A stretch of DNA of 64,000 nucleotides from Hoeflea prorocentri (GTDB lineage Bacteria; Pseudomonadota; Alphaproteobacteria; Rhizobiales; Rhizobiaceae): positions 1,798,001 to 1,862,000 of the forward strand of contig NZ_JAPJZI010000001.1 of the NCBI RefSeq assembly GCF_027944115.1. The letters run 5' to 3'. Both the position numbers and the translations under genes were made by a program. The notes under the pieces were generated by a model. That model had not been told where the DNA came from, did not search any database, and saw only the letters and a list, made by a program, of their open reading frames with translations. Positions 35,530 through 51,169 of the stretch are shown one piece after another. Positions within the stretch are counted from its first letter, which is position 1; each line of letters opens with the position of its first letter.

Positions 35530-36141
35530 TTATATCAGTGCCAATGACCCTTTTGAAAACAGATAGATCTTATCCTGAGAAATCGGCTCAACAAGAGCGT
35601 TTTCAGCGTCCGTGACACCAAGAATAAACAGGCAGATCCGCAGGACTCCGGCATGGGAGACAATAACCGATGGGCGGTCGAAACCATCGAGCAGTGTTCT
35701 CAAACTGGCAAGGCGTGACGCGTGACTTTCTCCGCCGGGCGGGACGAACCGCCACCGGTCGGCTTTGCGTGCCCGGCGCAACTTGGGGAAAGACGCCTTG
35801 ACCTCAAGTGTTGTCATACCCTCCCAATCGCCATACGAAATTTCGCGCAGTTCCGGAAGTTCAAGCAGATTGGCCGGTTGTGTCTGCAGGCGCCGTGCCA
35901 CAATCCTCGCGGTCTGTCTTGCCCGGCGAAGCGGCGAGCTGAGGATAGGAATGCCGTCCGCATCGGGGCCGTGCGTATTCAGATATTCCAAAAGACGCTG
36001 TGCAATATGCTCGGCTTGGGCCAGGCCAACGTCATCAAGGGCAATGTCACTGGACCCCTGAAACCGGCCCAGCCGGTTCCATTCGGTCTGGCCGTGCCGT
36101 ATCAGAATAATATCCGGATGATCGCCGATCTTACTTGCCAC
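35530..36141 (-). CDS. Histidine phosphatase family protein
   Basis: Phosphoglycerate-mutase-like phosphatase of about 203 residues. The phosphohistidine motif is ILIRHGQTEWNRLG near the start, with ILSSPLRRARQTARIV, the acid ELREISYGDWEGMT and the second histidine in VIVSHAGVLRICLF. The start is inferred as GTG at 36141, which overlaps the preceding epimerase gene by 11 bases; a longer frame exists but its extra residues do not resemble the family. Substrate unknown. Coupling to the epimerase suggests a sugar-phosphate, but that is a guess. Confidence 0.78.
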   Translation of the reverse strand: MASKIGDHPDIILIRHGQTEWNRLGRFQGSSDIALDDVGLAQAEHIAQRLLEYLNTHGPDADGIPILSSPLRRARQTARIVARRLQTQPANLLELPELREISYGDWEGMTTLEVKASFPKLRRARKADRWRFVPPGGESHASRLASLRTLLDGFDRPSVIVSHAGVLRICLFILGVTDAENALVEPISQDKIYLFSKGSLALI

Positions 36142-37162
36142 CGGTCTCGGAATGGTAGCGGTCGTACCAATCCACAAAAGCGGTAAGGCCTTCTTCCAGC
36201 GGCGTATGGACCTTGAAACCAAAGTCACGTTCCAGGTCCGACGTATCCGCATAGGTCTCGTAAACGTCTCCCGGCTGCATCGGCAGAAACTCCTTGACCG
36301 CCTTCTGCCCGGTTACCTTCTCAAGGGTTTTGATCATCGTAAGAAGTTCGACAGGCTCGCTGTTGCCGATATTATAAAGCCGGTAAAGTGGTGCGACCTC
36401 GCCATCGGACGCTTCCGAAGTCTCTGTGGCACCTTGCGGTGGAGATAGAAGGACCTTTACGACACCGTTCGCAATATCATCCACATAGGTAAAGTCGCGG
36501 CGCAAATCTCCGTTGTTGAATACTTTGATGGGATCGCCGTTACGGATCGCCTTGGTGAAGAGGTAGGCCGCCATGTCAGGCCGGCCCCAGGGTCCGTAAA
36601 CGGTAAAAAACCTTAACCCCGTGACAGGAATATTCCAAAGGTGACTGTAGACATGCGCCATCAGTTCGTTTGATTTTTTGGTGGCTGCATAGAGACTTAT
36701 GGGATTGTCCACATTCTGGTGGGTGCTGTAAGGCACGTCGTTGCTGTTGCCGTAAACAGAGCTTGAGCTGGCATAGGCCAGATGCGTAACGCCGCTGTCC
36801 CTGCAACCCTCGAGAATATTGAGGAAGCCGGTAATATTGCTGTCCACGTAGGCATGCGGGTTTTCAAGCGAATAACGAACGCCCGGCTGTGCGGCAAGGT
36901 GGGCGACATGTGATGGCCGAACGTTTTTGAAGATCGTGGCCACCGGATCCTTTTGTGCAAGGTCCACACGTTCGAAGCCGAAACCATTGCGACTCTGGAG
37001 TTGGGCAAGCCGTGCTTCCTTCAGGCCGACATCGTAGTAGCTGTTCATATTGTCGATGCCGACGACGCGGTAGCCGGCATCCAGTAGAAGCCTTGTGACA
37101 TGAAAGCCGATGAAGCCTGCTGCCCCGGTTACAATGATCGGGGCTGATATCTGGTCTGCCAT
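36131..37162 (-). CDS. lpsL: UDP-glucuronate 4-epimerase (LpsL-like)
   Basis: NAD-dependent extended SDR of 343 residues that would interconvert UDP-GlcA and UDP-GalA, a precursor of rhizobial LPS and exopolysaccharide. Motifs: VTGAAGFIGFHVTRLLLDAG, the family-typical GIDNMNSYYDVGLKEARL, LAAQPGVRYSLENPHAYVDS, catalytic SSSSVYG and YAATKKSNE, and FFTVYGPWGRPDMA. ATG 37162 gives the usual length; a GTG at 37177 would add five residues. It is divergent from the UDP-glucose dehydrogenase gene that makes its substrate. Confidence 0.88.
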   Translation of the reverse strand: MADQISAPIIVTGAAGFIGFHVTRLLLDAGYRVVGIDNMNSYYDVGLKEARLAQLQSRNGFGFERVDLAQKDPVATIFKNVRPSHVAHLAAQPGVRYSLENPHAYVDSNITGFLNILEGCRDSGVTHLAYASSSSVYGNSNDVPYSTHQNVDNPISLYAATKKSNELMAHVYSHLWNIPVTGLRFFTVYGPWGRPDMAAYLFTKAIRNGDPIKVFNNGDLRRDFTYVDDIANGVVKVLLSPPQGATETSEASDGEVAPLYRLYNIGNSEPVELLTMIKTLEKVTGQKAVKEFLPMQPGDVYETYADTSDLERDFGFKVHTPLEEGLTAFVDWYDRYHSETGGK

Positions 37163-37209
37163 AGATGAAGTTTCCACAGTGCTGGACGGTCGAAGTGTCT
37201 TTATATGGT

Positions 37210-37238
37210 TTGGAATTGTTCTGCGAATTGTTTATACC
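37210..37238 (+). promoter_or_regulatory. Possible promoter of the UDP-glucose dehydrogenase gene
   Basis: TTGGAA (37210-37215) and TATACC (37233-37238) with a 17-base spacer lie in the 147-base gap between the divergent epimerase and dehydrogenase genes. This leaves a leader of about 80 bases. Weak hexamers. Confidence 0.3.
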
Positions 37239-37324
37239 GCCACACACTGGCAAAGAAAACGCCATGACCCAAGGTTCAATGCAACAGGTCGACACCCTAC
37301 CGAAATTTAGCGCATGAGGCTGTT

Positions 37325-38644
37325 TTGATCATAACGATTATCGGAACCGGTTATGTCGGTCTCGTCACGGGCGTGTGCCTGTCCGAGTTCGGCTTCCACG
37401 TTACCTGCGTCGACAACAATCCGGACAAAGTGGCGTTGTTGAAAGATAATATCAGTCCGATCTACGAACCCGGACTGGAGCAGATGATGCGCCTGAATGC
37501 CGAGGCAGATCGGCTCAAGTTTGAAGGTGACGTATCGCAATGTGTCCCGGATTGCGATGTCGTCTTTCTTGCAGTTGGCACACCGTCCATTGCCGGCGGG
37601 GAAGACATAGACCTGAGCTACGTGTTCTCTGCCGTTGACGATATCGCTCCTCACCTGACAGACGGAACCGTTGTAATTGTAAAATGTACCGTCGTACCGG
37701 GCACATGCGAGCGCGTCAGGCAACAGATTGCAAAACTGCGCCCGGACCTTGATTTTTCCGTCGTCAGCAATCCGGAATTCCTGCGCGAGGGGTCAGCCAT
37801 TCAGGATTTCATGAGGCCGGACCGGGTTGTCATCGGTGTTCACGACGAACGTGGCCGCGAAGTCGCCGAAGCGCTCTATCGGCCGCTGAAGCTTCAGGAT
37901 ACGCCGATCTCCACGACGTCACTCGCCGGAGCGGAACTGAGCAAATACGCCTCGAATGCGTTTCTCGCGATGAAGGTCAGCTTCATCAACAGCATTGCCG
38001 ATCTGTGTGAGAAAGTGGAAGCAAACATTATCGAAGTTTCGGAAATCATTGGTCTGGACCAGCGGATCGGAGACAAGTTCCTGCGTGCAGGACCCGGCTT
38101 TGGCGGATCATGTTTTCCAAAGGATACGCGTGCCCTGGCCGCCTTTGGCAGATCCGTTGGCACCGACCAGCCGCTCGTCGAGGCAACGATCTCTTTCAAT
38201 GAAGATCGAAAAAACAAGATGGCTGAACGGGTGCTCGAAACCATTGGTGACCCCGAAGGCAAAACTGTCGCGGTACTCGGCATCGCCTTCAAGCCGGATA
38301 CGGATGACATCCGTGAGTCACCGGCTCTTCCGCTTGTGGAACTGCTCATCAAGAACGGTGTGGAGGTTCGCGCCTTTGATCCCAAAGCCATGGAACCGGC
38401 GGCAAAGCTTTATCCGCAGGTGGTCTGGGCCGATGATCCCTATGAAGCAGCCATCGGCGCGCATGCCGTCGTCATCATGACTGAATGGAACGTGTTGCGT
38501 GCGCTGGAACTGGAACGGTTGCGGGACGGGATGGCGGAGCCGCTGATGATCGATCTGCGGAACATTCATCGGCGGAAGGAGCCGGCGCGCTACGGCTTTA
38601 CCTATGTAAGCATCGGGCGCGACCCTGCCTCACCTGCACAATAA
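37325..38644 (+). CDS. ugd: UDP-glucose 6-dehydrogenase
   Basis: Oxidises UDP-glucose to UDP-glucuronate with two NAD+, supplying the epimerase and decarboxylase encoded on either side. 439 residues. NAD site ITIIGTGYVGLVTGVCLSEF at the start, NPEFLREGSAIQDF, the substrate loop with lysine in KYASNAFLAMKVSFINSIAD, and the catalytic cysteine Cys263 in GPGFGGSCFPKDTRAL. The C-terminal domain has VLGIAFKPDTDDIRESPAL. The start is TTG at 37325, with GAGG five bases upstream; no in-frame ATG precedes it and it falls exactly at the conserved N-terminus. Confidence 0.95.
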   Translation: MIITIIGTGYVGLVTGVCLSEFGFHVTCVDNNPDKVALLKDNISPIYEPGLEQMMRLNAEADRLKFEGDVSQCVPDCDVVFLAVGTPSIAGGEDIDLSYVFSAVDDIAPHLTDGTVVIVKCTVVPGTCERVRQQIAKLRPDLDFSVVSNPEFLREGSAIQDFMRPDRVVIGVHDERGREVAEALYRPLKLQDTPISTTSLAGAELSKYASNAFLAMKVSFINSIADLCEKVEANIIEVSEIIGLDQRIGDKFLRAGPGFGGSCFPKDTRALAAFGRSVGTDQPLVEATISFNEDRKNKMAERVLETIGDPEGKTVAVLGIAFKPDTDDIRESPALPLVELLIKNGVEVRAFDPKAMEPAAKLYPQVVWADDPYEAAIGAHAVVIMTEWNVLRALELERLRDGMAEPLMIDLRNIHRRKEPARYGFTYVSIGRDPASPAQ

Positions 38645-38674
38645 GCGAAAGCATAATAGCCACCACGGTGAGCG

Positions 38675-39355
38675 CTAGCTTGCCCAGCCGCCGGCAAAGG
38701 GAATTGCCTGTCCAACGAAGAAATCGCTTTGGTCACTCGCCAGGAAGAGAGCCAGAGCGACGTCTTCTTCCGGTTTTGCGAGCCGGCCGATGGGTACTTG
38801 TTCTTTCAAATTTTTCTGAAACTTCGGATTGGCCTGCAAATCGGGGGGATAGTAAGCCGGGTTTTCCACCCAGTTCTGGGCAATCAGGTTCACCTGTACG
38901 TTATGCCGCGCGACTTCGACGCCTACTGATTTGACATATGATATCTGGGCGCCACGGGCGGCGCTGTAGGCGGCAAGTCTTCCCATGGGGCGCAGCGGCG
39001 TCGCGCTTCCGAATACAATGATTTTGCCCTTTCGGCGGGCGATCATTTCAGGCAGAGTATGCCGTACCAGCCCGTGCAGAGGATGCACCAGTAGCGAGAA
39101 CGTTTCCTGCCAGGCCGGTTCATCGAGTTCGGTGACAAGCGTGCCGTAAAGGTTGGGCGCTGCCAGGTTGACAATCAACACGTCAATCAGTCCTGCGCCC
39201 TCTATCAGTCTTTGGCAATCCTCATCGCTTTTCAAATCACTGGCGTCGGCGAGTATTTCGGCGCCGTTTTTGGAAAACTCCTCTGCACATGCCGGTCCCA
39301 TAAACCGGTCGGCATGTGTCACCAGCACCCGTTTGCCGTTCATATCATAGGTCAT
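38675..39355 (-). CDS. Halohydrin-dehalogenase-type short-chain dehydrogenase relative
   Basis: SDR-fold protein of 226 residues that lacks the features of a working dehydrogenase. The nucleotide motif TGxxxGxG is replaced by THADRFMG (Thr13, Phe18, Gly20), which fits T-x4-F/Y-x-G. The catalytic YxxxK is replaced by Ser117-x12-Tyr130-x3-Arg134 (SATPLRPMGRLAAYSAAR). These two patterns are the ones used to define halohydrin dehalogenases (HheA-HheG families), which release halide from vicinal halohydrins to give epoxides and need no cofactor. The later NPAYYPPDL and FFVGQAIPFAGGW also recall HheC. ATG 39355 is chosen; a longer frame would add unrelated residues. Downstream of the exostosin-like gene by 44 bases. 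A non-dehalogenating divergent SDR remains possible. Confidence 0.65.
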   Translation of the reverse strand: MTYDMNGKRVLVTHADRFMGPACAEEFSKNGAEILADASDLKSDEDCQRLIEGAGLIDVLIVNLAAPNLYGTLVTELDEPAWQETFSLLVHPLHGLVRHTLPEMIARRKGKIIVFGSATPLRPMGRLAAYSAARGAQISYVKSVGVEVARHNVQVNLIAQNWVENPAYYPPDLQANPKFQKNLKEQVPIGRLAKPEEDVALALFLASDQSDFFVGQAIPFAGGWAS

Positions 39356-39399
39356 ATGACTCTGCCCTTTCACGCTGACTGGCTGCCCCTGTGCGAGGA

Positions 39400-40434
39400 T
39401 CACGGCCCCTGATGCGCCATGTCGACGAAGTCCTGAAACGATTGCCGCTTTGCATTGCGACGTGCCCGCCCCCGGAACCGGTCCAACCATGTCTCAAGAT
39501 AGAGTGACGAGAAGTCGAACTGAGAACCAAGAATCCGCTCCCTCTGCTGCTGCATAAAGTTCACCGTCACCTCACTCCAGTCATCAACGACACAAACCGG
39601 CAGGTCGTCGAACAGACTGCTGATCCCTGAGCGGGGAACAATCGGCACGGACCCCAGCAGTAACGCCTCCCAGGTCCTATGGCAGTCCAATCCGGCGCCA
39701 AGCGGGCTGAGCGTGAAGAAATGGGTCGCATTGTTCTTCCAACTTGTGGAACGCTCGACGGAAAGCCTTTCCAGCGCCAACGTATCAAAGTCCACAGCGT
39801 TAATGCATCTTAACCGGTCGCCACGATCCAACGCATGATGCCAGTTGCAGTAGCCGGCAAGTTTTTTCTCTTTAAGGCGCGGTGCCGCAATCCTGATCGT
39901 ATCAAGCGTCTTTTCCTGTTCTACGGGGGTATCGAAATAGCCCCAAGGATCAAAGCGCATCTGGAACGTCAGTGTGTGGTAGTCGAGACCGATCGGCAGG
40001 GGTCTCAGTTTCGGGTGATTGTCGTTGCAGTTCTGGGCGTACCAGGACACAAGATTCGGGTTGTCCAGCAGACGGGAACGCAGTTCCTGCTCAAGGTCTC
40101 TCGGTCCTGCTTCGACGTCACAGCAACCGGTTACCAGAACAAACGGCATGTCGAGACTTTCGAGAGAATTCTCGCTGAACTTGTGAAGAAATTCGGTCTT
40201 GACGTAGATGACGGGCGGCGGCGTGTCTGAACGGCTACCCTGCCCGTTTGCCGGAATAGCTTGGTGCGGGCTACCGTCCACCGTCCAGAAATCACATGTC
40301 TTCTTGATTCCATGGCTGCCGACGTAACGGCAAGCCGCCTCGGTTTTTCCGGATGCGTGAAGCCGGTACGACAACAGGGAGCCATAGGCCCCGAGATGAT
40401 TTGAAATCCGACGTACCCGCCTTTTCAGTCCCAT
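39400..40434 (-). CDS. Exostosin-like (GT47-type) protein
   Basis: Soluble protein of 344 residues. The C-terminal half resembles the exostosin/GT47 donor domain: FFTLSPLGAGLDCHRTWEAL near residue 245, LLGSVPIVPRSGISSLFDDL, then VCVVDDWSEV. The N-terminal half (FVLVTGCCDVEAG, NLVSWYAQNCNDNHPKLRPL) would form the other lobe. No signal peptide or membrane anchor. It lies between UDP-sugar genes, so a glycosyltransferase using one of their products is plausible. Promoter not identified in the 207-base gap to the divergent decarboxylase gene. Confidence 0.6.
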   Translation of the reverse strand: MGLKRRVRRISNHLGAYGSLLSYRLHASGKTEAACRYVGSHGIKKTCDFWTVDGSPHQAIPANGQGSRSDTPPPVIYVKTEFLHKFSENSLESLDMPFVLVTGCCDVEAGPRDLEQELRSRLLDNPNLVSWYAQNCNDNHPKLRPLPIGLDYHTLTFQMRFDPWGYFDTPVEQEKTLDTIRIAAPRLKEKKLAGYCNWHHALDRGDRLRCINAVDFDTLALERLSVERSTSWKNNATHFFTLSPLGAGLDCHRTWEALLLGSVPIVPRSGISSLFDDLPVCVVDDWSEVTVNFMQQQRERILGSQFDFSSLYLETWLDRFRGRARRNAKRQSFQDFVDMAHQGP

Positions 40435-40641
40435 CGGCTTATCCCCAAACCTTGTCAGAAAGGTTCACTGTGCCCCCACCCATTTGCAGGCTGCTGCCGC
40501 GTTGTAATGCGCAGGTTGAGACTTGCCAAGAATGCGGTTGTATCCCATGTGATGATTCAATAAACCATTGGCAAAAAAGCGCAAACGTTCCGGCTGGTTT
40601 AGGTTGGACTTGCGATACTTTACATCTTTTTAGGAGAGATT

Positions 40642-41580
40642 ATGCGCGAGATTCTCGTAACCGGCGGGTCAGGGTTTTTGGGTTCGCATCTGTGCGATGC
40701 CCTTCTGGAACGCGGCGGCAGCGTCTTGTGTGTGGACAATTTCTTCACTGGCCAGCGCAACAACATCAAGCACCTGCTTGGACGCACTGACTTCGAGTTG
40801 ATGCGCCATGATGTGGTGGACCCGTTGAATGTTGAAGTGGAGCAGATTTTCAACCTCGCCTGCCCGGCCTCGCCGGTCCATTATCAGTTCGATCCGGTTC
40901 AGACCACCAAGACAAGCGTGCTCGGTGCTATCAATATGCTTGATCTTGCCAGGCGGCTGGACGTTCCGGTGCTTCAGGCGTCGACCTCGGAAGTCTATGG
41001 AGATCCGCGTGTGCATCCCCAAAGTGAGGACTACTGGGGACGTGTCAATCCGATCGGTCCGCGCAGTTGCTACGATGAAGGAAAACGCTGCGCTGAAACC
41101 TTGTTCTTCGACTATCACCGCGAGCACAGCGTCAAGATCAAAGTTATGCGTATTTTCAATACGTATGGCCCGCGCATGCATCCGAATGACGGACGGGTGG
41201 TGAGCAACTTCGTTGTTCAGGCTCTCCAGGGCGACCCCATCACAATCTATGGCGACGGAAATCAGACGCGCAGTTTCTGCTATGTCGACGACCTGATTGG
41301 CGGAATGCTGGCATTGATGGACAGCGCCGATGGCACAACCGGTCCGGTTAATTTCGGTAACCCCAATGAATGTTCAATGCTCGAACTGGCAGAACGGGTC
41401 TTGTCCCTTGTCGACAGTAAGTCCGAGATTGTGTTCAAACCATTGCCTCAGGACGATCCGATTCAACGTTGTCCCGATATAACTATTGCCAAACGCGACC
41501 TCGACTGGGCGCCCAAGGTCAACCTTGAAGACGGGCTTGGTGAAACCGTTTCCTGGTTCAGACACACACTCGACATCTGA
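40642..41580 (+). CDS. uxs: UDP-glucuronate decarboxylase (UDP-xylose synthase)
   Basis: Extended SDR of 312 residues that converts UDP-GlcA to UDP-xylose. NAD site [20 protein letters not shown] at the start, the family start [37 protein letters not shown] near residue 75, STSEVYGDP, and catalytic Tyr144/Lys148 in [11 protein letters not shown]. This SCYDEGKR context is diagnostic for UXS against dTDP-glucose dehydratases. A GGAGAG site precedes the ATG. Together with ugd and the 4-epimerase it forms a UDP-GlcA branch point giving UDP-GalA and UDP-Xyl. Confidence 0.9.
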
Positions 41581-41626
41581 TGCAGAAGGTCGCAGCCGTT
41601 CTGATTTCTCTGAATGGCTGATTGAC

Positions 41627-41646
41627 AACATACCCGGTAGTATGTT
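41627..41646. promoter_or_regulatory. Inverted repeat, likely TetR-family operator
   Basis: AACATAC (41627-41633) and GTATGTT (41640-41646) are perfect inverted arms around CCGGTA. A TTGACA (41622-41627) adjoins the left arm. The site lies 84 bases upstream of the TetR-family gene at 41730, as expected for autoregulation of that gene and the operon that follows. I did not find a second copy by eye. Confidence 0.6.
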
Positions 41647-41729
41647 CCTCTCCTGTTAAAGAATACAGGGGTGTGAGGCCGTCATTGGCCGGTGCAATCC
41701 CGAAAGGGTTGAGGAGGAAAACACCGCCT

Positions 41730-42380
41730 ATGTCCGCATCGGCGACACAGAGCCCGGTACGCCCGGTTCAGGAAGACATTCTCAACGCAGCCGCAAAATG
41801 TTTCATGGCGCGTGGATACGCGGCAACCAGCATAGACGACGTCGCACGCAGTCTCGGCGCAACCAAGGGACGCATATATCATCACTATCGCTCAAAGGCG
41901 GATCTTTTTTTTGATGTGTTTCGCCACGGTATGCAGATGAATTTCGATGCGATCACGCCGATTGCATCGCAATCCATGCCAACTGCCGAGAAGCTGCGGA
42001 GGATGACCAAAACCCATTGCCTGGCCATGATCCACACGCAGCCCTTCCAGCGTTGCGTGTGGGAGGGTGTCGAACTGCTGCAACGCGGCGCGACGACGCC
42101 TGAGCAGCGTGAAATTCTGATCGAACTGCAGTCTATGCGGGATAATTATGCGGAGATTTTCCGTACTGTTCTCGACAAAGCAAAACAGGAAGGAATTGCC
42201 CACTTCGAAAGCTCAAGCATTGCCTTACAACTTATGTTTATTTCACTGAATTCACCTCTTTTCTGGTTTCAGGAGCGTGAAGGTCAGGATGAGAGTACGA
42301 TTGAGCACATTGCGAGCCAGTGCGCCCTGTTTGCGCTGCGTGGTCTCGGGTTGACGGAGGAACTTGCTGAAAATGTCTGA
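41730..42380 (+). CDS. TetR-family transcriptional regulator
   Basis: Repressor-type protein of 216 residues heading the long catabolic operon. The helix-turn-helix is ILNAAAKCFMARGYAATSID, DVARSLGATKGRIYHHYRSK, residues about 15-60. The C-terminal ligand domain contains LFWFQEREGQDESTIEHI, and would probably sense an acyl-CoA or the free acid. ATG 41730 follows a GAGGAGG site; a longer frame from 41622 would start inside the presumed operator and is rejected. The stop overlaps the start of the acyl-CoA dehydrogenase by 8 bases. Confidence 0.88.
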   Translation: MSASATQSPVRPVQEDILNAAAKCFMARGYAATSIDDVARSLGATKGRIYHHYRSKADLFFDVFRHGMQMNFDAITPIASQSMPTAEKLRRMTKTHCLAMIHTQPFQRCVWEGVELLQRGATTPEQREILIELQSMRDNYAEIFRTVLDKAKQEGIAHFESSSIALQLMFISLNSPLFWFQEREGQDESTIEHIASQCALFALRGLGLTEELAENV

Positions 42381-43611
42381 CATGAATTTGGGTATTACCG
42401 ACAAGGTCGCACCGCTGCTTGAAGAGGTTCGCACGATGGTGCGGGATGAGATTCTTCCGCTTGAGGAAGAATTTCTGGGCGAAGTGGACAAGGATGACCG
42501 GTGGACTTACACACCCCGACAGACCGAGATTCTCGAGGGCTTGAAGACGAAGGCCAGGGAAAGAGGCCTCTGGAACTTCTGGCTTACCGACTCAGATCGC
42601 GGTTACGGACTGACAACCGTAGAATATGCATATCTCGCGGAGGAAATGGGCAAGGCCAGCATAGGGGCGGAAGTCTTCAACTGTTCGGCTCCGGATACCG
42701 GAAATATGGAGGTGCTCGAGCGCTACTGCAGCGACAGCCAAAAAGACAGATGGCTGGCACCGCTGCTGGAAGGGAAAATCAGATCAGCCTACCTGATGAC
42801 CGAGCCGGACGTTGCCTCTTCCGACGCTACGAATATCGCCATGCGTTGCGAGCGCGACGGTGACGACTACGTTCTCAACGGAGAAAAGTGGTGGTCATCC
42901 GGCGCGGGCGATCCGCGCTGTGAAATCTACATCGTTATGGTCAAGACCGGTGGCGACGATCAGCCCAAGCATCAGCGTCATTCTATGGTACTGGTCCCGG
43001 CCGATACGCCCGGCATCGAAAAACTGCGCGCAATGCAGGTTTATGGTCACGATGATGCACCGCATGGCCACCTGCATATACGCTTCACCGATGTGCGCGT
43101 ACCGGCGGACAGCCTCATTCTTGGTGAGGGACGCGGTTTTGAAATCGCGCAAGGACGCCTGGGTCCAGGCCGCATTCACCATTGCATGCGAGCCATCGGA
43201 CAGGCCGAGCGTGCCCTGGAAATGATGTGTCAGCGTTCGCTTCGACGCGAGGCTTTCGGAAAACCACTTGCCAAACTTGGCGCCAACTATGACATCATTG
43301 CCGAATGCCGCATGGATATCGAGATGGCGCGTCTGCTTTGCCTGAAGGCAGCCTGGATGATGGATCAGGGCGACGCGCGTGCTGCAGCGCCGTGGATCAG
43401 CCAGATCAAGGTGGTGGCTCCGAGGGTTGCACTCAAGGTAACGGATGAAGCGGTTCAGATGTATGGCGGTGAAGGCGTTTCGCAGGATACTCCCCTCGCC
43501 CGCGCATGGACAGGATTGCGGACGTTGCGGCTTGCCGACGGGCCGGATGCTGTCCATCGCATGCAGGTCGCCCGCAAGGAACTGAAGCAATACACCCAGG
43601 AGCGTGTCTGA
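42373..43611 (+). CDS. Acyl-CoA dehydrogenase, ACAD10/11-like
   Basis: FAD enzyme of 412 residues. Landmarks: LMTEPDVASSDATNIAMRCE near residue 140, then ALNGEKWW-type VLNGEKWWSSGAGDPRCEIY, GPGRIHHCMRAIGQAERALE near residue 265, and the C-terminal LRLADGPDAVHRMQVARKEL. In the last segment the catalytic position usually filled by glutamate before Gly is an aspartate (ADGPD), as in the ACAD10/11 group, whose members include enzymes acting on 4-hydroxyacyl-CoAs. ATG 42373 overlaps the regulator gene by 8 bases. Two reductase-like genes follow at 2-base gaps, showing one operon. Confidence 0.88.
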   Translation: MSDMNLGITDKVAPLLEEVRTMVRDEILPLEEEFLGEVDKDDRWTYTPRQTEILEGLKTKARERGLWNFWLTDSDRGYGLTTVEYAYLAEEMGKASIGAEVFNCSAPDTGNMEVLERYCSDSQKDRWLAPLLEGKIRSAYLMTEPDVASSDATNIAMRCERDGDDYVLNGEKWWSSGAGDPRCEIYIVMVKTGGDDQPKHQRHSMVLVPADTPGIEKLRAMQVYGHDDAPHGHLHIRFTDVRVPADSLILGEGRGFEIAQGRLGPGRIHHCMRAIGQAERALEMMCQRSLRREAFGKPLAKLGANYDIIAECRMDIEMARLLCLKAAWMMDQGDARAAAPWISQIKVVAPRVALKVTDEAVQMYGGEGVSQDTPLARAWTGLRTLRLADGPDAVHRMQVARKELKQYTQERV

Positions 43612-43613
43612 CC

Positions 43614-44591
43614 ATGAAGGCAGTCGTTTGCGAGGCATATGGTCCGCTGGAAAACCTTGAATACAAGGATATCGATGATCCGCACGTCAAGGACCATACG
43701 GTGGTGGTCAGATCCGAGGCCATCGGTGTGAATTATCCTGATGGCCTTTTGGTCAAGGGTTTATACCAGATGAAGCCGCCAACGCCCTTTGTTCCGGGAA
43801 TGGAAGTTGCCGGCATCGTTGAATCAGTCGGATCGGCGGTGGAGAAATTCAAACCGGGAGACCGTGTCGCAGCGCTCGGACAACTGGGCGGCTATGCCGA
43901 GCTGGTTGCTGTGCCCCAGGCCGCTGTCTTTCCGCTCCCACCGGACATGGATGCGGCCAATGCATGCGCCTTGCTATGTGCCTATGGAACGTCTCATCAC
44001 GCGCTTAAGCAGCGGGCCGAACTCAAGCCAGGCGAGACCATTGCAATATTGGGCGCCGCCGGCTCGACCGGTATCGCCGCGATCCAGATCGCCAAGGTCA
44101 TGGGGGCAAGGGTGATTGCCGTGGCATCTTCCCCGGAAAAGCAGTCCGCGGCGCGCGCTGCCGGCGCTGATGACGTCATTGGCTACGACAACCTCAAGGA
44201 CGATCTGAAAGGCCTGACCGGCGGCAAGGGTGTCGATGTGCTCTTTGATCCCGTCGGCGGGGATGCATTTGATGCGGCATGCCGCGCCATGGCCCGCAAG
44301 GGGCGGCTTCTTGTGGTTGGATTTGCCTCGGGCCGCATACCGGAACTGCCTGCCAATCTGACGTTGGTGAAAGAATTCTCATTGGTTGGTGTCTTCTGGG
44401 GCTCGTTCACACAACACGAACCGCAGACCTATGCAGACAATATGAAGGAGCTGATCGGCTGGTACCTTGAAGGCAAGGTCAAACCTCATATTGAAGGTCG
44501 GTATCCGCTGCAGCAGGCTGCCGACGTGCTGACAAGGGTGCTTGACCGCGGCGCTGTCGGCAAGCTCGTTCTTGTACCTGAAGGAGCTTGA
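43614..44591 (+). CDS. NADPH:quinone oxidoreductase-type medium-chain reductase
   Basis: Zinc-free MDR protein of 325 residues. The N-terminal GroES-like domain has GVNYPDGLLVKGLYQMKPPT and FVPGMEVAGIVESVG. The Rossmann domain has AILGAAGSTGIAAIQIAKVM near residue 145, the AxxGxxG pattern for NADP. No zinc-ligand cysteines or histidines are in place. Family members reduce quinones or alpha,beta-unsaturated carbonyls; here it could act on an enoyl intermediate. It lies 2 bases after the acyl-CoA dehydrogenase and 2 bases before the next reductase-like gene. Confidence 0.85.
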   Translation: MKAVVCEAYGPLENLEYKDIDDPHVKDHTVVVRSEAIGVNYPDGLLVKGLYQMKPPTPFVPGMEVAGIVESVGSAVEKFKPGDRVAALGQLGGYAELVAVPQAAVFPLPPDMDAANACALLCAYGTSHHALKQRAELKPGETIAILGAAGSTGIAAIQIAKVMGARVIAVASSPEKQSAARAAGADDVIGYDNLKDDLKGLTGGKGVDVLFDPVGGDAFDAACRAMARKGRLLVVGFASGRIPELPANLTLVKEFSLVGVFWGSFTQHEPQTYADNMKELIGWYLEGKVKPHIEGRYPLQQAADVLTRVLDRGAVGKLVLVPEGA

Positions 44592-44593
44592 CG

Positions 44594-45631
44594 ATGACAT
44601 TACCCAAAGAGACGTTCGCATTGGTGCAAAAGCATGACGGCTACTCGGGAACGTCCGAAGGTCCGCACATTGAAAGCCTGGACCTTTATCTGGAACCTGC
44701 AACCATAGCGTTGCCCGAACTTGCGGACGGTCAGGTGCTCATCCGCATGGCCATGGCATCGATCAATCCGTCCGATCTTCATTATATCAAGGGCGAGTAC
44801 GGACACCCCCGGGTGAAGGGCGCTGCGGCGGGCTTTGAAGGCGTTGGCGAAGTGGTTGCCGGGAACGGTGACTATGCGACCTCACTGGTGGGCAAGCGTG
44901 TTGCGTTTACGGTCGATCCGGCAGGATCCGGAACATGGGCCGATTATGCAATCACCTCTGCCAAAGTCTGCATTCCGGTGCGTGACGACATGCGCGATGA
45001 GGATGCGGCGGGCCATGTCGTCAATCCGCTTACGGCGATGGCTATGTTCGACATTGTCCGCGCATCGCAAACCGGCAGTTTTATACTGACCGCCGCCAAC
45101 AGCCAGCTGTGCAAACTGCTTACCGCGCTCGGACGCGATCATGATATTGCGCCGATCGCGATCGTGCGCAAGCAGGAGCAGGAAGAGCATTTGCGGGAAC
45201 TTGGCGCGAAACATGTGCTCAACAGTTCCAGCGACGGTTTTGCAGAAGAGCTCAAGAACATCATAAGGTCCGAAAAACCAAGGGTGATGCTGGATGCGGT
45301 CGCCAATCAGACGTCTTCCGACATCTTCACCGCCATGCCGAACCGGGCACGCTGGGTGGTCTACGGCAAGCTCGACCCGACGCCGCCGGTGTTGAATGAG
45401 ATGGGACAGTTCATCTTCATGGAAAAGCGTGTGGAGGGGTTCTGGCTGACGCGGTGGTTCATGAACACCCCGCTCGACGAGCAAATCCGGATTATCGGCG
45501 AAGTACAGGAACGTTTTGTGTCAGGTAAGTGGCAAACGGAAGTCGGCGCCAAGATAGGTCTCAAGGACGCCATGTCCGATCTGGCCGGCGCACTACAAAA
45601 TGCCAATGGAAAGGTCATGCTGGTTCCGTAG
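44594..45631 (+). CDS. Zinc-free medium-chain dehydrogenase/reductase (enoyl-reductase-like)
   Basis: 345 residues. N-terminal MDR domain with MASINPSDLHYIKGEYGHPR and AAAGFEGVGEVVAG, similar in layout to mitochondrial-type 2-enoyl thioester reductases. The cofactor domain is degenerate: FILTAANSQLCKLLTALGRD replaces the usual glycine-rich loop, and IAIVRKQEQEEHLRELGA follows. No zinc ligands are seen. The ATG at 44594 has AAGGAG eight bases upstream. Role likely in the same acyl pathway, for example saturating a branched or conjugated enoyl-CoA; unproven. Confidence 0.75.
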   Translation: MTLPKETFALVQKHDGYSGTSEGPHIESLDLYLEPATIALPELADGQVLIRMAMASINPSDLHYIKGEYGHPRVKGAAAGFEGVGEVVAGNGDYATSLVGKRVAFTVDPAGSGTWADYAITSAKVCIPVRDDMRDEDAAGHVVNPLTAMAMFDIVRASQTGSFILTAANSQLCKLLTALGRDHDIAPIAIVRKQEQEEHLRELGAKHVLNSSSDGFAEELKNIIRSEKPRVMLDAVANQTSSDIFTAMPNRARWVVYGKLDPTPPVLNEMGQFIFMEKRVEGFWLTRWFMNTPLDEQIRIIGEVQERFVSGKWQTEVGAKIGLKDAMSDLAGALQNANGKVMLVP

Positions 45632-45709: not shown

Positions 45710-46585
45710 GTGGATATATTGCAACTGATTGTTAGCGGGTTGGCCAATGGGTGCGTTTATGGCCTGATCGCTCTTGGGTTCGTGTTGATCTACAAGGCGA
45801 CAGAGTCAGTGAATTTCGCGCAGGGCGACTTCATGATGCTGGGCGCCTTTATCACACTCGGCTTTACCAACGCCCATTATATGGACCTGCCCTTCTGGCT
45901 GTCGGTTCTCCTGGCCATTTCGATCATGGGCGTGCTCGGCTATCTGCTGGACTTTGTCATATTGCGCAGAATGTTCGGCCAGTCGCAGGTTGCCGTCGTG
46001 ATCCTGACCATCGCGCTGGGTTTTGTCATCCGCTTTATCGCCGGCGCCATCTGGGGCCACGAACCGCAATCGCTGGAATCGCCTATTGCCGGCAGTGAAT
46101 TGCGATTTGGCGGTCTTGTACTGGGCCTCGATGAGGTATGGGTGATCATCATCACACTCCTGCTGACGGGCGTGCTCTACCTGTTCTTTGCCCGGACCAA
46201 GCTTGGCGTTGCCATGCAGGCCTCGTCGCAAAACCAGCTTGCCGCCTACTACATGGGTATTCCGGTCAAGCGCATACATTCGCTGATCTGGGGCCTTTCC
46301 GGCATTGTCGCGACAATTGCCGGCATCCTCTTTGCGTCCAAGGGATCGATTGATCCGGCTGCCGGCCTTCTGGGCATCAAAGCGTTTGCGGCCGCAGTGA
46401 TTGGCGGCTTCGGCAGCCTGCCCGGTGCGCTTCTTGGAGGCATTATTATCGGTCTGGTTGAACCGTTTGCCGCCAGATACATGCCTGCCGGCTATTCGCA
46501 GATTTTCCCTTATCTGATCCTGATTGTGATGCTGGTGGTAAGGCCGCATGGCATCCTCTCCCAGATCCAGACAAAAAAAGTGTGA
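45710..46585 (+). CDS. LivH-type ABC transporter permease
   Basis: Inner-membrane permease of 291 residues of the branched-chain-amino-acid (HAAT) class. It starts ILQLIVSGLANGCVYGLIAL, followed by GFVLIYKATESVNFAQGDFM, the family hallmark. The late segment is AFAAAVIGGFGSLPGALLGG near residue 225. GTG at 45710 with GGGAGG nine bases upstream is the start. Within this operon the cargo is more likely a carboxylic acid than an amino acid. Confidence 0.92.
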   Translation: MDILQLIVSGLANGCVYGLIALGFVLIYKATESVNFAQGDFMMLGAFITLGFTNAHYMDLPFWLSVLLAISIMGVLGYLLDFVILRRMFGQSQVAVVILTIALGFVIRFIAGAIWGHEPQSLESPIAGSELRFGGLVLGLDEVWVIIITLLLTGVLYLFFARTKLGVAMQASSQNQLAAYYMGIPVKRIHSLIWGLSGIVATIAGILFASKGSIDPAAGLLGIKAFAAAVIGGFGSLPGALLGGIIIGLVEPFAARYMPAGYSQIFPYLILIVMLVVRPHGILSQIQTKKV

Positions 46586-46594
46586 GGGCTGGCG

Positions 46595-47695
46595 ATGCGC
46601 ACCGTTTTCAAGACCTCATACGACGCCGATATCCGGCTGTTCAAACACAATGCCCAAGCCTTCTGGTATCTGTTGCTGTTTGCGATTGCGATAGGCCTGC
46701 CGTTCCTCGTGAATGATTTCTTGATCGGGGAAGCCACACTTGTCCTGATCTGGGCGATCTGTGGCATGGGGCTTATGATCCTCGTGGGACAGACAGGACA
46801 GGCAAGCCTCGGCCATGCCGCATTTATGGCCATTGGCGCCTATTCCAACGTGCTCTATCAGGAGCATTTTTCGATGCCGTTCCTGTTGTCGTTTCCCCTC
46901 TCGGGGCTGACAGCGGGCGTGGCTGGAGCCCTGATCGCACTGCCCACGACACGCCTGCACGGTATCTATCTGGCCATTGCAACACTCGCCATCTCGGTTC
47001 TGGCCGAGGATTTGATCGTCATTCTGGAACCCATTACCGGTGGTGTGGCAGGTCTTTTTGCTCCGGATATTCAGATCTTCGGTTTCACCTTCAACCGCTA
47101 TGGCAATCCGGTGGAGCTCTATTGGCTTGTGCTGGCGATCACATTTGTCATCGTCTATCTCTACCGCAACCTGTTACGGTCACCGCTCGGCCGGTCTTTC
47201 GCCGCCGTGCGTGATTCGGAGGTTTCGGCAAAGGCCATGGGCGTAAACGTCGCCCGCACAAAAATGCTGGCATTTGCGGTTTCCTGCACGATCACCGGGC
47301 TCGGCGGCGCGCTCATGGGGCATTTTGCAACGGTGTTCACCCATGAGACCTTCAACCTGATCATGTCGATCACCTTGCTGCTGATCATTGTCGTCGGCGG
47401 GCTTGGCACCATTCACGGTGCATTCTTCGGGGCAATCGTGTTTGTGCTGCTACCGCTTTTGATCTCTTTCACAAGGGACGGGATCGCTTCGTTGACAGGA
47501 GCCAGCTCAATTACAATTCCCGGCCTGGAACAGGGAATCTTCGGCGCTATCCTCATCGGCTTCATTCTGTTTGAGCCGATGGGCATCTACGGCCGCTGGT
47601 TCAAGATCCGCACCTATTTCGAGCTGTTTCCCTTCTATCGGAAGGACATGTTCCGCCGCCAGAAGAGTTACCTGAAGACGGAGCGCACACGATGA
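46595..47695 (+). CDS. LivM-type ABC transporter permease
   Basis: Second permease, 366 residues. Family marks: LIWAICGMGLMILVGQTGQA, SLGHAAFMAIGAYSNVL near residue 72, LPTTRLHGIYLAIATLAISV, and RDSEVSAKAMGVNVARTKML, the loop that meets the ATPase. It ends with a basic tail (FRRQKSYLKTERTR). Nine bases after livH; it overlaps the ATPase gene by 4 bases. Confidence 0.92.
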   Translation: MRTVFKTSYDADIRLFKHNAQAFWYLLLFAIAIGLPFLVNDFLIGEATLVLIWAICGMGLMILVGQTGQASLGHAAFMAIGAYSNVLYQEHFSMPFLLSFPLSGLTAGVAGALIALPTTRLHGIYLAIATLAISVLAEDLIVILEPITGGVAGLFAPDIQIFGFTFNRYGNPVELYWLVLAITFVIVYLYRNLLRSPLGRSFAAVRDSEVSAKAMGVNVARTKMLAFAVSCTITGLGGALMGHFATVFTHETFNLIMSITLLLIIVVGGLGTIHGAFFGAIVFVLLPLLISFTRDGIASLTGASSITIPGLEQGIFGAILIGFILFEPMGIYGRWFKIRTYFELFPFYRKDMFRRQKSYLKTERTR

Positions 47696-48477
47696 GCCTA
47701 TTGGAACTCACCAATGTCACGCTGCGTTTCGGCGGCCTTGTCGCGGTTAATGACGTATCCTTCAATGTCGAAGAAGGCGAAGTCTTTGCTCTGGTCGGAC
47801 CCAATGGGGCCGGCAAGTCGACGATCTTCAACATGATCTCACGGTTCTATACACCGGCGGAAGGCGATATCTTCTATCAGGGCAAGAGTATCCTGGACCG
47901 CGAAGCGCACGAGATTCCGCAACTTGGCATCGCGCGCACCTTCCAGAATATCGAGCTGTTCGAACAGGCTTCGGTTCTGCAAAACCTTCTGGTCGGCCGC
48001 CACACGCATCGCCGGTCCAACTTTCTCACCGACATGATTTTCACACCCTTCGTGCGCGAGGAAGAACGCAGACACCGCGAAGCGGTCGAGCATGTCATCG
48101 AGTTTCTCGACCTTCAGGCCTATCGCGAAAAGATGATTTCCGGGCTGCCTTACGGCGTGCGCAAGGTTGTGGAGATGGGCCGTGCGCTGGCCATCAAACC
48201 CAAGCTGCTGCTGCTGGATGAACCTGCTTCCGGGCTGTCCGTTGAAGAAACGCAGGACGTTGCCTTCTGGATCGAGGACATCAAGAAGGTGATGGGCATT
48301 ACCGTACTCATGGTTGAGCATGACATGCATCTGGTCGGTGCGGTGTCCGACCGGGTCATGGCGCTGGCGGACGGACGCATGCTCGCCATCGGAACGCCGC
48401 AGGAAGTTCAAAACGATCCGGCTGTCATTGAGGCATATCTTGGTTCCGATGACACAGACAGTGGAGAAGCCGCATGA
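47692..48477 (+). CDS. LivG-type ABC ATPase
   Basis: ATP-binding subunit of 261 residues. Walker A GPNGAGKSTIFNMI near residue 42, Q-loop region GIARTFQNIELFEQASVLQN, the degenerate family signature SGLPYGVRKVVEMGRALAIK, Walker B LLLLDEPASGLS and switch histidine VEHDMHLV. It ends in the LivG-type IGTPQEVQNDPAVIEAYLG. Overlaps both neighbours by 4 bases. Confidence 0.93.
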   Translation: MSLLELTNVTLRFGGLVAVNDVSFNVEEGEVFALVGPNGAGKSTIFNMISRFYTPAEGDIFYQGKSILDREAHEIPQLGIARTFQNIELFEQASVLQNLLVGRHTHRRSNFLTDMIFTPFVREEERRHREAVEHVIEFLDLQAYREKMISGLPYGVRKVVEMGRALAIKPKLLLLDEPASGLSVEETQDVAFWIEDIKKVMGITVLMVEHDMHLVGAVSDRVMALADGRMLAIGTPQEVQNDPAVIEAYLGSDDTDSGEAA

Positions 48478-49259
48478 GTGACAACACAAATGCTCCGCTG
48501 CTCCGGGTCGACAATCTTGAGAGTTTCTATGGCCCGATCATGGCTATTCGGGGTGTGAGCCTGGAGGTCAAGGAGGGGCAGATCGTCACCGTTCTCGGAG
48601 CCAATGGTGCGGGCAAGACCACATTGCTAAAGACCATATCCGGCGTTATGGACCCGGAAAAGGGCACCGTCGCCCTGCAAGGGGACGAGATCCAGGGCAG
48701 CGCGCCGGATGCCGTGGTCCATCGGGGTGTCGTTCATGTGCCGGAAGGCCGTGAAATCTTCCCCATCCTGACCGTCGAAGAAAATCTGAAAATGGGTGCC
48801 TATACGCGTTCCGATCATGAAGCGATCGCCTCTGATATGGAACTGGTCTACACTTATTTTCCGATCCTGAGGGAGCGCCGGTTGCAAGAGGCAGGCACGC
48901 TTTCGGGCGGCCAACAGCAGATGCTCGCCATCGGCCGCGGCCTGATGGCCAAACCGCGCATCATGCTTCTGGACGAGCCGAGCCTCGGCCTCAGTCCTCT
49001 GCTCGTGAAAGAGATCTTCACCATCATTAGCAGGCTCAACCGGGAGCAGAATGTGACAATGATGCTGGTAGAACAGAATGCAAAGGTGGCGCTTGATGTG
49101 GCACACTATGGCTATGTGATGGAACTCGGACGTATCGTGATGAGCGGCGAGGCTGAAAAACTTCAACAATCGAAGGATATTCAAGAGTTCTATCTGGGTG
49201 CACAACAGGACACGCAGCGCGGACAGCGACGCTGGAAGCAACGCAAAACCTGGCGCTGA
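48474..49259 (+). CDS. LivF-type ABC ATPase
   Basis: Second ATPase, 261 residues. Walker A GANGAGKTTLLKTI near residue 43, VPEGREIFPILTVEENLKMG, signature LSGGQQQMLAIGRGL, Walker B IMLLDEPSLGLSP and the histidine-loop equivalent MLVEQNAKVAL. It has an unusual basic tail after the normal LivF end (DTQRGQRRWKQRKTWR), possibly a few codons gained by loss of an earlier stop. It is 20 bases before the ligase gene. Confidence 0.92.
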   Translation: MSDNTNAPLLRVDNLESFYGPIMAIRGVSLEVKEGQIVTVLGANGAGKTTLLKTISGVMDPEKGTVALQGDEIQGSAPDAVVHRGVVHVPEGREIFPILTVEENLKMGAYTRSDHEAIASDMELVYTYFPILRERRLQEAGTLSGGQQQMLAIGRGLMAKPRIMLLDEPSLGLSPLLVKEIFTIISRLNREQNVTMMLVEQNAKVALDVAHYGYVMELGRIVMSGEAEKLQQSKDIQEFYLGAQQDTQRGQRRWKQRKTWR

Positions 49260-49279: not shown

Positions 49280-51169
49280 ATGGGCAATATGGAAACCATT
49301 CCACCGCAGACGCGGGTCAATGGCATCAGCGTCAACAGCGACCTCCACCAAGGTCCCTATTTTATCGACGGCTGCGACACGATGGCCAAGCTCTTCCTGC
49401 AGCGGTGCAAGGCGCTGGGCGAACGCATATCGCATCGTGAGAAGGAATACGGCATCTGGCTTTCCTATTCGTGGAACGATTACCTCGAACATGCCCGTCT
49501 GATCGGACTTGGCCTGATTGCTCTGGGGCTGAAACGAGGTGAAGCGGTCTCCATTCTTTCGGAAGACAACAAGGAGTGGGTCTATACGGACCTCGCCGTA
49601 CAGTGCGTCGGTGGCATCTCATCGGGCGTTTACACCACGGATTCATCCAGTCAGCTTGCCTATCTGGTCAATGATTCCGACAGTCGCTTCCTGTTCGTCG
49701 AAAATGACGAACAGCTCGACAAGTTTCTGTCGGTGCGCGACGAGATGCCGGGTCTGACCAAGGTAATCGTCTTCGACCGGGAAGGATTGCACGACTATCA
49801 CGATGAGAGGGTCATCTTTATCGAGGAACTCTACGATATCGGGCGGGTGCATCTAAAGAAACACCCTGAACTGTTTGAAGAGGAAATCGCCAGATCGAAG
49901 CCGGAGGATATCTCGATCCTGGTTTACACGTCCGGTACAACCGGACCGCCCAAAGGCGCGATGATATCAAACAGCAACATCATGTACTCGCTTTCGGTCG
50001 GCGCTTATACCCTGCCCGCCCTGGAGACGGATGAACAGGTATGCTTTTTGCCACTTTGTCATATTCTTGAACGCTTTATCTCGGTTCTCTCACCTATTGC
50101 TTCGAAATCGACCGTCAATTTTGCGGAGAGCCCGGAAACGGTGTTCGACAATGTCAGGGAGGTCAGTCCGCACATCTTCACGGCCGTTCCCCGTGTCTGG
50201 GAGAAGATCTATTCCAGAATATCGATCATGGTTGGCGATGCGACGCCGCTTGGCCGTTGGGCCTATTCGCAGGCGCTTGCGGCGGGCATTGCCCGAGCCG
50301 AATGCCTTGAGGACGAAAAACCTGTTTCGCCACTGCTTCAGGCCCGTTACCGCTTCTGGGATGCTGTGGTGCTCAGAAATATCCGGCGCATGATCGGTCT
50401 TGATCGCCTGCGTCGCGGCACCACCGGTGCGGCCCCGATTTCGCCCGACCTATTACGCTGGTTCAAGGCCATCGGCGTCGACCTCTTCGAAGGCTATGGC
50501 ATGAGTGAGACCGCCGGCATTATTTCGCTCAATATGTACGGCAAGAACAAGATCGGCAGCGTCGGGCTCGTGGTGCCTGGTGGCCAGGTGCAGATCGGCG
50601 AAGGCGGGGAAATCCAGTACAAGGCCGGCAATGTGTTTGAAGGCTACTGGAAGAAGCCGGAGAAGACACAAGAGGCGATTTCCGAGGATGGATGGCTGAA
50701 GACCGGCGATGTCGGTCACGTCGACAATTCAGGTTACGTGCATATCACCGGGCGACTGAAAGACATCATCATCACCGCCGGCGGCAAGAACATCACGCCC
50801 GCGGAAATCGAGAACAAACTGAAGTTCTCGCCTTACATTTCCGACGCCGTGATCATTGGCGACAAGAGAAAGTTCCTGTCCTGTCTGATCATGATCGATC
50901 AGGAAAATGTCGAAAAATACGCGCAGGACAAACGTGTGCCGTTTGGCGATTTTGCCTCGCTATGCGCAACGGAAGAAGTCCAGGAACTCATCGGCAACGT
51001 CGTGCGGGAAGTCAATGACGAATTCGCCCGCGTTGAGCAGATCAAGGCATTCAGGCTTATCGATGTTTTGCTGACAGCCGAGGATGACGAGTTAACCGCC
51101 ACCATGAAACTCAAGCGCAGTTTCGTGGAGAAAAAACATAAAGCGCTGATAGAAGAAATGTACGCCTGA
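49280..51169 (+). CDS. AMP-forming acyl-CoA ligase (long-chain, COG1022 type)
   Basis: Activates a carboxylic acid to its CoA thioester through an acyl-adenylate, 629 residues. P-loop LVYTSGTTGPPKGAMISNSN near residue 214, FLPLCHILERFIS, GYGMSETAGIISLN near residue 405, adenylate motif WLKTGDVGHVD near residue 472 and GRLKDIIITAGGKNITPAEI near residue 490. The length and the YTSGTTGPPKGA / GGKNI context suit the eukaryote-like long-chain ligase group (FAA1-like). Its position inside the transporter genes, between the ATPase and the binding protein, implies activation of the imported acid. Confidence 0.92.
   Translation: MGNMETIPPQTRVNGISVNSDLHQGPYFIDGCDTMAKLFLQRCKALGERISHREKEYGIWLSYSWNDYLEHARLIGLGLIALGLKRGEAVSILSEDNKEWVYTDLAVQCVGGISSGVYTTDSSSQLAYLVNDSDSRFLFVENDEQLDKFLSVRDEMPGLTKVIVFDREGLHDYHDERVIFIEELYDIGRVHLKKHPELFEEEIARSKPEDISILVYTSGTTGPPKGAMISNSNIMYSLSVGAYTLPALETDEQVCFLPLCHILERFISVLSPIASKSTVNFAESPETVFDNVREVSPHIFTAVPRVWEKIYSRISIMVGDATPLGRWAYSQALAAGIARAECLEDEKPVSPLLQARYRFWDAVVLRNIRRMIGLDRLRRGTTGAAPISPDLLRWFKAIGVDLFEGYGMSETAGIISLNMYGKNKIGSVGLVVPGGQVQIGEGGEIQYKAGNVFEGYWKKPEKTQEAISEDGWLKTGDVGHVDNSGYVHITGRLKDIIITAGGKNITPAEIENKLKFSPYISDAVIIGDKRKFLSCLIMIDQENVEKYAQDKRVPFGDFASLCATEEVQELIGNVVREVNDEFARVEQIKAFRLIDVLLTAEDDELTATMKLKRSFVEKKHKALIEEMYA

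Follow-up and report, generated by a model that had tools for sequence, protein, structure and literature searches.

The window analysed here (the whole stretch of Hoeflea prorocentri DNA, 64,000 nucleotides long) contains an SDR-like gene among genes for sugar-nucleotide enzymes, which raises the question of what reaction its product catalyses and what its neighbours say about its natural role. The first-pass annotation had proposed a halohydrin dehalogenase (HHDH). HHDHs convert halogenated alcohols to epoxides without a cofactor and are in use for biocatalysis. We conclude that the gene very probably encodes a cofactor-free HHDH of the HheB/HheD superclade. This assignment draws on motifs, homology, a tree, a predicted fold and replaced NAD residues, and the activity is a prediction.

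Motifs, relatives and fold of the enzyme

38675–39355, minus strand: HHDH gene (226 aa, stop included in the coordinates; ATG at 39355)
39296–39319, minus strand: motif 1, T13-x4-F18-x-G20 (T13-H-A-D-R-F18-M-G20), replacing the glycine-rich NAD motif
38954–39007, minus strand: motif 2, catalytic S117-x12-Y130-x3-R134 (Y130-SAA-R134)
38843–38884, minus strand: residues 158–171, IAQNWVENPAYYPP, aligned by way of 6a41 with the HheC stretch GPNYL..PYFYP

We take the region of residues 158–171, like the corresponding stretch of HheC, to line the halide pocket. Translation of 39355–38675 places T13, F18 and G20, and S117, Y130 and R134, at the positions and with the spacing that the first-pass annotation had given, with the glycine-rich NAD motif replaced; the NPAYYPP stretch (residues 165–171) and the terminal PFAGGWAS that it had singled out are likewise present. 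In the mechanical list of open reading frames the HHDH frame begins upstream at 39490, within the preceding gene, and translation might instead start at M5, an ATG four codons further in, where the aligned part of the copy in a related genome (G001) begins. A scan for promoters and terminators near the gene returned no more than were found in shuffled sequences.

HHDHs are defined by two fingerprints, T-x4-F/Y-x-G and S-x12-Y-x3-R (PMC11976700, section 3, and PMC4989007, sections 4 and 5), the first of which stands where SDRs have T-G-x3-G-x-G (PMC11976700, section 3). Both were found in 76 of the 77 rows of an alignment of the window protein with 76 relatives (75 of the relatives), the one other row having an unread residue in motif 1. 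S117, Y130 and R134 are identical in all 77 rows, and Q160, Y168 and P170 are invariant. The relatives had been found by sequence patterns around residues 150–170 or by whole-protein search rather than by the motifs, and the motif check covers these aligned proteins, not all of the at least 494 relatives from which the best 80 loci were taken. The alignment used 72 of those 80 loci: L017, L018, L019 and L021 are the same records as L009–L012, and in L030, L046, L051 and L088 the gene pick gave no clean HHDH frame.

The window's own genome yields 46 non-self SDR-type matches to the HHDH, 20 of which, trimmed to a guessed start, were taken as a control. Neither HHDH motif occurs in any of the 20, and all 20 have the ordinary second motif of SDRs, S-x10-14-Y-x3-K, so that the motifs separate HHDHs from ordinary SDRs in the way first proposed (76 of 77 rows versus 0 of 20). 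The glycine-rich motif and the catalytic Lys are features of the control proteins and not of the window HHDH. In the same alignment the NAD-contacting residues of SDRs are replaced: position 14 is His (Gly in 18 and Ala in 2 of the 20), position 18 is Phe (Gly in all 20), position 134 is Arg (Lys in all 20), position 160 is Gln (Pro in 18) and position 161 is Asn (Gly in 16). Past the second strand, most of the control proteins have a segment about 20 residues longer than that of the window HHDH. The replacements and the shortened segment are consistent with a putative loss of the cofactor.

The nearest solved relatives are HheD2, HheD8 and HheB. A phmmer search of the PDB returned 7b73, 8xxb, 4zd6 and 5b12 at E-values of 3e-67 to 2e-64, with the next chain at 7e-29; by their PDB titles these are HheD2, an HheD8 mutant with chloride, HheB and an HheB mutant, respectively. 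HheD2 (7b73) and HheD8 (8xxb, a triple mutant) are like the window enzyme in both motifs, in fold and in their similar length, and all three have Q160-N161 instead of the P-G of SDRs, although identity is 51% and 49%, respectively, and the clades are separate. HheB of Corynebacterium sp. N-1074 (4zd6) also has both motifs in a chain of 227 residues, and differs in its 48% identity, its own clade and a Tyr in motif 1 where the window protein has Phe.

A maximum-likelihood tree was built from 102 rows (82 HHDH rows and the 20 own-genome SDRs), with nearly full-length HheB, HheD2 and HheD8, fragments of HheC and 6a41, and no HheA, HheE, HheF or HheG. It sets the HHDHs, including the window protein, apart from the own-genome SDRs with support of 100/99; the program flags long branches among the SDRs. 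The B/D superclade (80 rows) is separated from HheC and 6a41 (100/96), and within it the window protein joins Rhizobiaceae, Kordiimonas-type and Rhodospirillaceae rows in a 14-member clade (98/95), whereas HheD2 and HheD8 belong to another clade (100/100) and HheB to a third (100/97). On sequence grounds, it belongs to a subclade with other alphaproteobacterial proteins. The 48–51% identity to solved HHDHs, which on the D side was measured against HheD2 and HheD8, lies below the 57–95% given between HheD19–HheD38 and the verified D-type enzymes (HheD–HheD6) in PMC4989007 (section 5).

An AlphaFold2 model made from the 77 aligned sequences has a mean pLDDT of 93.9. All of the nine top-ranked PDB matches to this predicted fold are HHDH chains, namely HheD2, HheB (wild type and mutant) and the HheD8 mutant with chloride, with TM-scores on the query of 0.93–0.94; rank 10 is 6a41, titled 'Dehalogenation enzyme'. 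From rank 11 on, among the 50 rows listed, NAD-dependent SDRs are mixed with the distant HheG and HheC at 21–30% identity. The classical SDRs in this range, such as L-2-keto-3-deoxyfuconate 4-dehydrogenase (8xwk, 8y11) and FabG, resemble the window HHDH in their Rossmann-type fold and in the positions of the catalytic Ser and Tyr. Pfam names the window protein as an SDR only, and none of the 25 listed NCBIfam models (171 matched) is over its cut-off, as would suit an ordinary NAD(P)-dependent SDR that had acquired HHDH-like motifs by chance. That explanation is contradicted by the tree, the motif control, the fold ranking and the replaced NAD residues, and we consider it extremely improbable; the same four lines of evidence uphold the original identification as an HHDH.

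A special likeness to HheC, which had also been claimed, is not borne out. HheC (1pwx, 3zn2, 5kwe) has the motifs and catalytic triad of the window enzyme, as in the published definition (PMC11976700, section 3, and PMC4989007, section 4), and its PYFYP aligns with the window NPAYYPP by way of 6a41; however, it is 24% identical in the Foldseek alignment, as against 48–51% for HheD2, HheD8 and HheB. In HheC a C-terminal extension projects a Trp into the adjacent monomer (PMC4989007, section 4), whereas the window HHDH ends two residues past GGW (...GGWAS) and has no such extension, a feature that speaks against the HheC subtype.

In HheC, the Ser binds the hydroxyl, the Tyr takes the proton aided by the Arg, and the alkoxide displaces the vicinal halide to give epoxide and halide; in the reverse reaction epoxides are opened by anions (PMC4989007, section 4). 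If the window enzyme follows its family, S117 would hold the hydroxyl of a vicinal halohydrin, Y130, with its pKa lowered by R134, would take the hydroxyl proton, and the alkoxide would displace the adjacent halide to form the epoxide. The halide would then exit into a pocket formed by F18 and the loop of residues 160–170, where other SDRs bind NAD, and the reaction would be reversible with other anions.

Sugar genes in a variable slot

36131–37177, minus strand: NAD-dependent sugar epimerase of the epimerase/dehydratase family, which we take to be a UDP-glucuronate 4-epimerase
37325–38644, plus strand: nucleotide-sugar (UDP-glucose type) dehydrogenase (UGD), TIGR03026 over cut-off; converges on the HHDH gene; variable-slot gene
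39400–40434, minus strand: glycosyltransferase candidate, exostosin/RXYLT1-like, with a sub-threshold Pfam match to RXYLT1_C only
40642–41580, plus strand: NAD-dependent epimerase/dehydratase, presumably UDP-xylose synthase-like (UXS); NCBIfam matches below cut-off
41622–42380, plus strand: TetR-type regulator; head-to-head with the HHDH gene in G026 and G001

The neighbours are those described in the first pass (a nucleotide-sugar dehydrogenase, two NAD-dependent epimerase/dehydratases and an exostosin-like protein), and they invite the explanation that the HHDH is a sugar-nucleotide or glycan enzyme cotranscribed with the exostosin-like glycosyltransferase. The glycosyltransferase candidate does share the strand of the HHDH gene, 44 bp upstream of it, and two relatives (G006 and G007) keep this order. 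We compared the slot that is bounded by a phosphoglycerate-mutase-like gene on one side and the TetR gene on the other across the window's genome (G000), G001–G007 and G026. The complete arrangement of epimerase, UGD, HHDH, glycosyltransferase and UXS is found in G000, G006 and G007, while G002 and G005 have epimerase and UGD without the HHDH, and G003 and G004 have UGD and UXS, again without the HHDH. Conversely, the slot in G026 contains a carbamoyltransferase-like gene and the HHDH with no glycosyltransferase, UGD or UXS. In G001 the HHDH gene lies beside the TetR gene near a contig end; UGD is on another contig, and glycosyltransferase, UGD and UXS were not found on the 18.7 kb read of the 22.7-kb contig that carries the HHDH. 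The glycosyltransferase candidate is thus present in three of the five HHDH-bearing genomes (G000, G001, G006, G007 and G026) among the window's own genome and 80 relatives, a set of 81 in which G026 is the single HHDH-bearing genome outside the genus.

Among the best 80 of at least 494 relatives, these sugar genes were detected (E 1e-20, 60% coverage) only in L017 and L018, which are the records of G006 and G007, with the exception of a 33% UGD match in L044. The HHDH and the sugar genes thus occupy this one variable slot independently of each other. Since they come and go separately, the sugar-nucleotide reading is not supported: an HHDH role in sugar-nucleotide metabolism is unlikely, and a glycan enzyme cotranscribed with the glycosyltransferase has, in our estimate, very little chance of being correct.

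Across window 36131–41622, L013–L016 and L141–L149, the slot holds differing sugar-gene sets, a carbamoyltransferase-like gene or the HHDH. Within window 36131–41580, UGD, the UXS-like gene and the glycosyltransferase candidate, whose sub-threshold match is to the ribitol xylosyltransferase RXYLT1, could form a small UDP-xylose-using set in their own right. A distant SDR-type match, 22% identical to the HHDH, stands head-to-head with a TetR gene in another genus (L146 4222–4977, in G039), as the HHDH gene does in G026 and G001.

Importer, ligase and epoxide-handling neighbours

42364–43611, plus strand: acyl-CoA dehydrogenase; 54–57% identical genes in five gammaproteobacterial HHDH loci
43506–44591 and 44588–45631, plus strand: two zinc-type/quinone-reductase-type dehydrogenases
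45710–49259, plus strand: LIV-type ABC importer, two permeases and two ATPases
49280–51169, plus strand: AMP-dependent acyl-CoA ligase
51193–52353, plus strand: periplasmic substrate-binding protein of the importer

As called mechanically, the frame at 43506–44591 starts about 100 bases before the end of the acyl-CoA dehydrogenase gene, and its true start probably lies downstream.

Gene context was surveyed in 81 loci, the window and the best 80 of at least 494 relatives, in which gene calls are open-reading-frame picks (1,152 genes) rather than annotations, and the neighbour profiles were built from the loci's own clusters, one to four members of each being named by Pfam. Some contigs end near the HHDH gene (more than 4 kb is available upstream in 65 of the 81 loci and more than 1.5 kb downstream in 73), and the loci are not independent, since many come from metagenome bins and close relatives. 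With these bounds, a LivM-profile match was found in 21 loci, all divergent upstream of the HHDH gene and all in Rhizobiaceae or Gammaproteobacteria, and a strong ligase match, likewise divergent upstream, was found in 17 of these. Orthology was tested with one gammaproteobacterial locus, L042, and in each case the best match in the window's own genome is the window cluster: 48% versus 33% for the next match for the ligase (a 380 aa part as query; 28 matches), 48% versus 39% for LivM (32 matches), and 41% versus 25% for the binding protein (12 matches).

How firmly the two modules are tied was examined in two sets of relatives. The first comprises 58 genomes assembled by kinship around G081, the genome of L042, a centre that was itself picked because it is linked. 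A close HHDH homologue occurs in 33 of these genomes, and in 33 of the first 37 rows; the ligase occurs in 12 and both occur in 10, on one contig and about 4 kb apart in eight of the 10. The ligase is present in 10 of the 33 genomes with the HHDH versus 2 of the 25 without, which is not significant (two-sided Fisher P 0.052, kinship ignored). The second set is the window's family of 81 genomes, where the ligase is found at 64% identity or more in 21 genomes, 16 without and 5 with the HHDH, and where the HHDH lies about 8–10 kb from the ligase in all five genomes that have it. The steady part is thus the ligase in the window's family and, the reverse, the HHDH around G081. A further check of 25 HHDH genomes, whose loci were picked knowing which were linked, gave 10 without a ligase match at E 1e-120 and four (G092, G093, G099 and G101) whose close ligase lies beyond the 10 kb of sequence surveyed at the HHDH gene. 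Tight dependence of the HHDH on the LIV/ligase module was therefore dropped, given the many ligase-bearing relatives that have no HHDH, the HHDH genomes with no ligase match or an unlinked one, and the P value around G081. What these data do suggest is that the HHDH and the importer/ligase module have been repeatedly juxtaposed.

Enzymes that could handle epoxides also recur among the 81 loci. The EHN-type epoxide hydrolase profile matches 13, and in five, all of one tree clade, the hydrolase gene is 150 bp or less downstream on the HHDH strand. Glutathione transferase (GST) matches are found in 31, seven of them 150 bp or less upstream on the same strand and spread over three parts of the tree (the L063–L086 group, L077 and L087). 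Six loci have an HpaB-type monooxygenase 150 bp or less downstream on the same strand, a TauD-type dioxygenase is present in 19, and a glyoxalase-fold protein in 21. Neighbours of these kinds would fit epoxide chemistry in the cell. Importer, GST, epoxide hydrolase and HpaB are all absent from the stretch read in 32 loci, some on short contigs, and these include the clade mates of the window HHDH, L022–L028. There and in other lineages the immediate neighbours that were named are varied (an RTX-repeat protein, formyltransferase, flavoprotein, molybdopterin oxidoreductase, sodium symporter and others). For the genome that contains the window, a partner epoxide hydrolase of the PF06441 family was considered and rejected, a search limited to PF06441 giving no match there.

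At L065 (8551–12009) a class-III aminotransferase gene is directly upstream of the HHDH gene, and a nitrile hydratase alpha chain is encoded downstream past one small open reading frame. HHDHs can use cyanide as a nucleophile, so a nitrile link at this locus is possible.

Natural role

PMC11536340 gives the natural function of HHDHs as presumably haloalcohol detoxification and degradation. The first-pass annotation had called the family small, which the presence of both motifs in nearly all aligned relatives and of a close homologue in more than half of the genomes around G081 argues against; the latter frequency also makes a steady natural role likely. We tentatively propose that this role is to make or clear epoxides that stem from a naturally occurring halogenated metabolite, in some lineages beside a LIV-type importer and acyl-CoA ligase or beside epoxide-consuming enzymes. 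A more specific and somewhat more speculative version is that the B/D-superclade HHDHs belong to a common and mainly marine bacterial metabolism, in which halohydrins derived from natural carboxylates, imported by the LIV-type system and activated by the ligase, are converted to epoxides that a neighbouring epoxide hydrolase or GST opens, and that they do not serve mainly for industrial haloalcohols. As part of this version, the window's lineage and the gammaproteobacteria would have joined the two modules separately, because the importer cluster is steady in the former and the HHDH in the latter.

The same prevalence around G081 would also suit an enzyme with an HHDH fold and active site and a different natural reaction, in which an epoxide or related strained ring is opened or formed and the nucleophile or leaving group is something other than a halide; a breakdown pathway encoded nearby might, for example, supply the intermediate acted upon. 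Among 49 neighbour proteins scanned with Pfam, most neighbours being outside the scan, none is named as a halogenase or haloalkane dehalogenase, and GST, epoxide hydrolase, HpaB-type monooxygenase and TauD-type dioxygenase are all among the neighbours. On the other hand, every catalytic and motif residue is as in the HHDH family, a mutant of HheD8, a close solved relative, was crystallised with chloride, and the alpha/beta hydrolase encoded directly upstream of the HHDH gene on the same strand in L064 (2826–3704) could be a haloalkane dehalogenase or an epoxide hydrolase. On balance a non-dehalogenating reaction seems improbable, and we retain dehalogenation as the preferred reading.

HheD12 of Pseudomonas pelagia is listed in PMC6922532 together with similar proteins from the same lineage of marine bacteria, and the occurrence of HHDHs in marine gammaproteobacteria was thus already known. 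On the gene context described here we found no literature among open-licence papers, a body outside which most subscription journals fall. The window enzyme is one more member of the HHDH family, and its context is a clue to the natural role that is unproven. It offers an additional scaffold from a subclade that has no solved structure among the references used. The importer, ligase, epoxide hydrolase, GST and monooxygenase that recur beside the HHDH in part of the family are concrete partner proteins for a hunt for the natural substrate, and the association of the importer/ligase and epoxide enzymes with that part of the family is worth pursuing.

Two further observations concern the labels of the relatives. 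The 6.1-kb HHDH contig of L094, from a metagenome bin, is titled Klebsiella pneumoniae; its HHDH pairs with that of L065, from a gammaproteobacterial bin, and either contig or label is perhaps misplaced. HHDH relatives of 54–56% identity are also found in bins labelled Acidimicrobiaceae, Acidimicrobiales and Rhodothermaeota (L056, L057 and L079), outside the Pseudomonadota.
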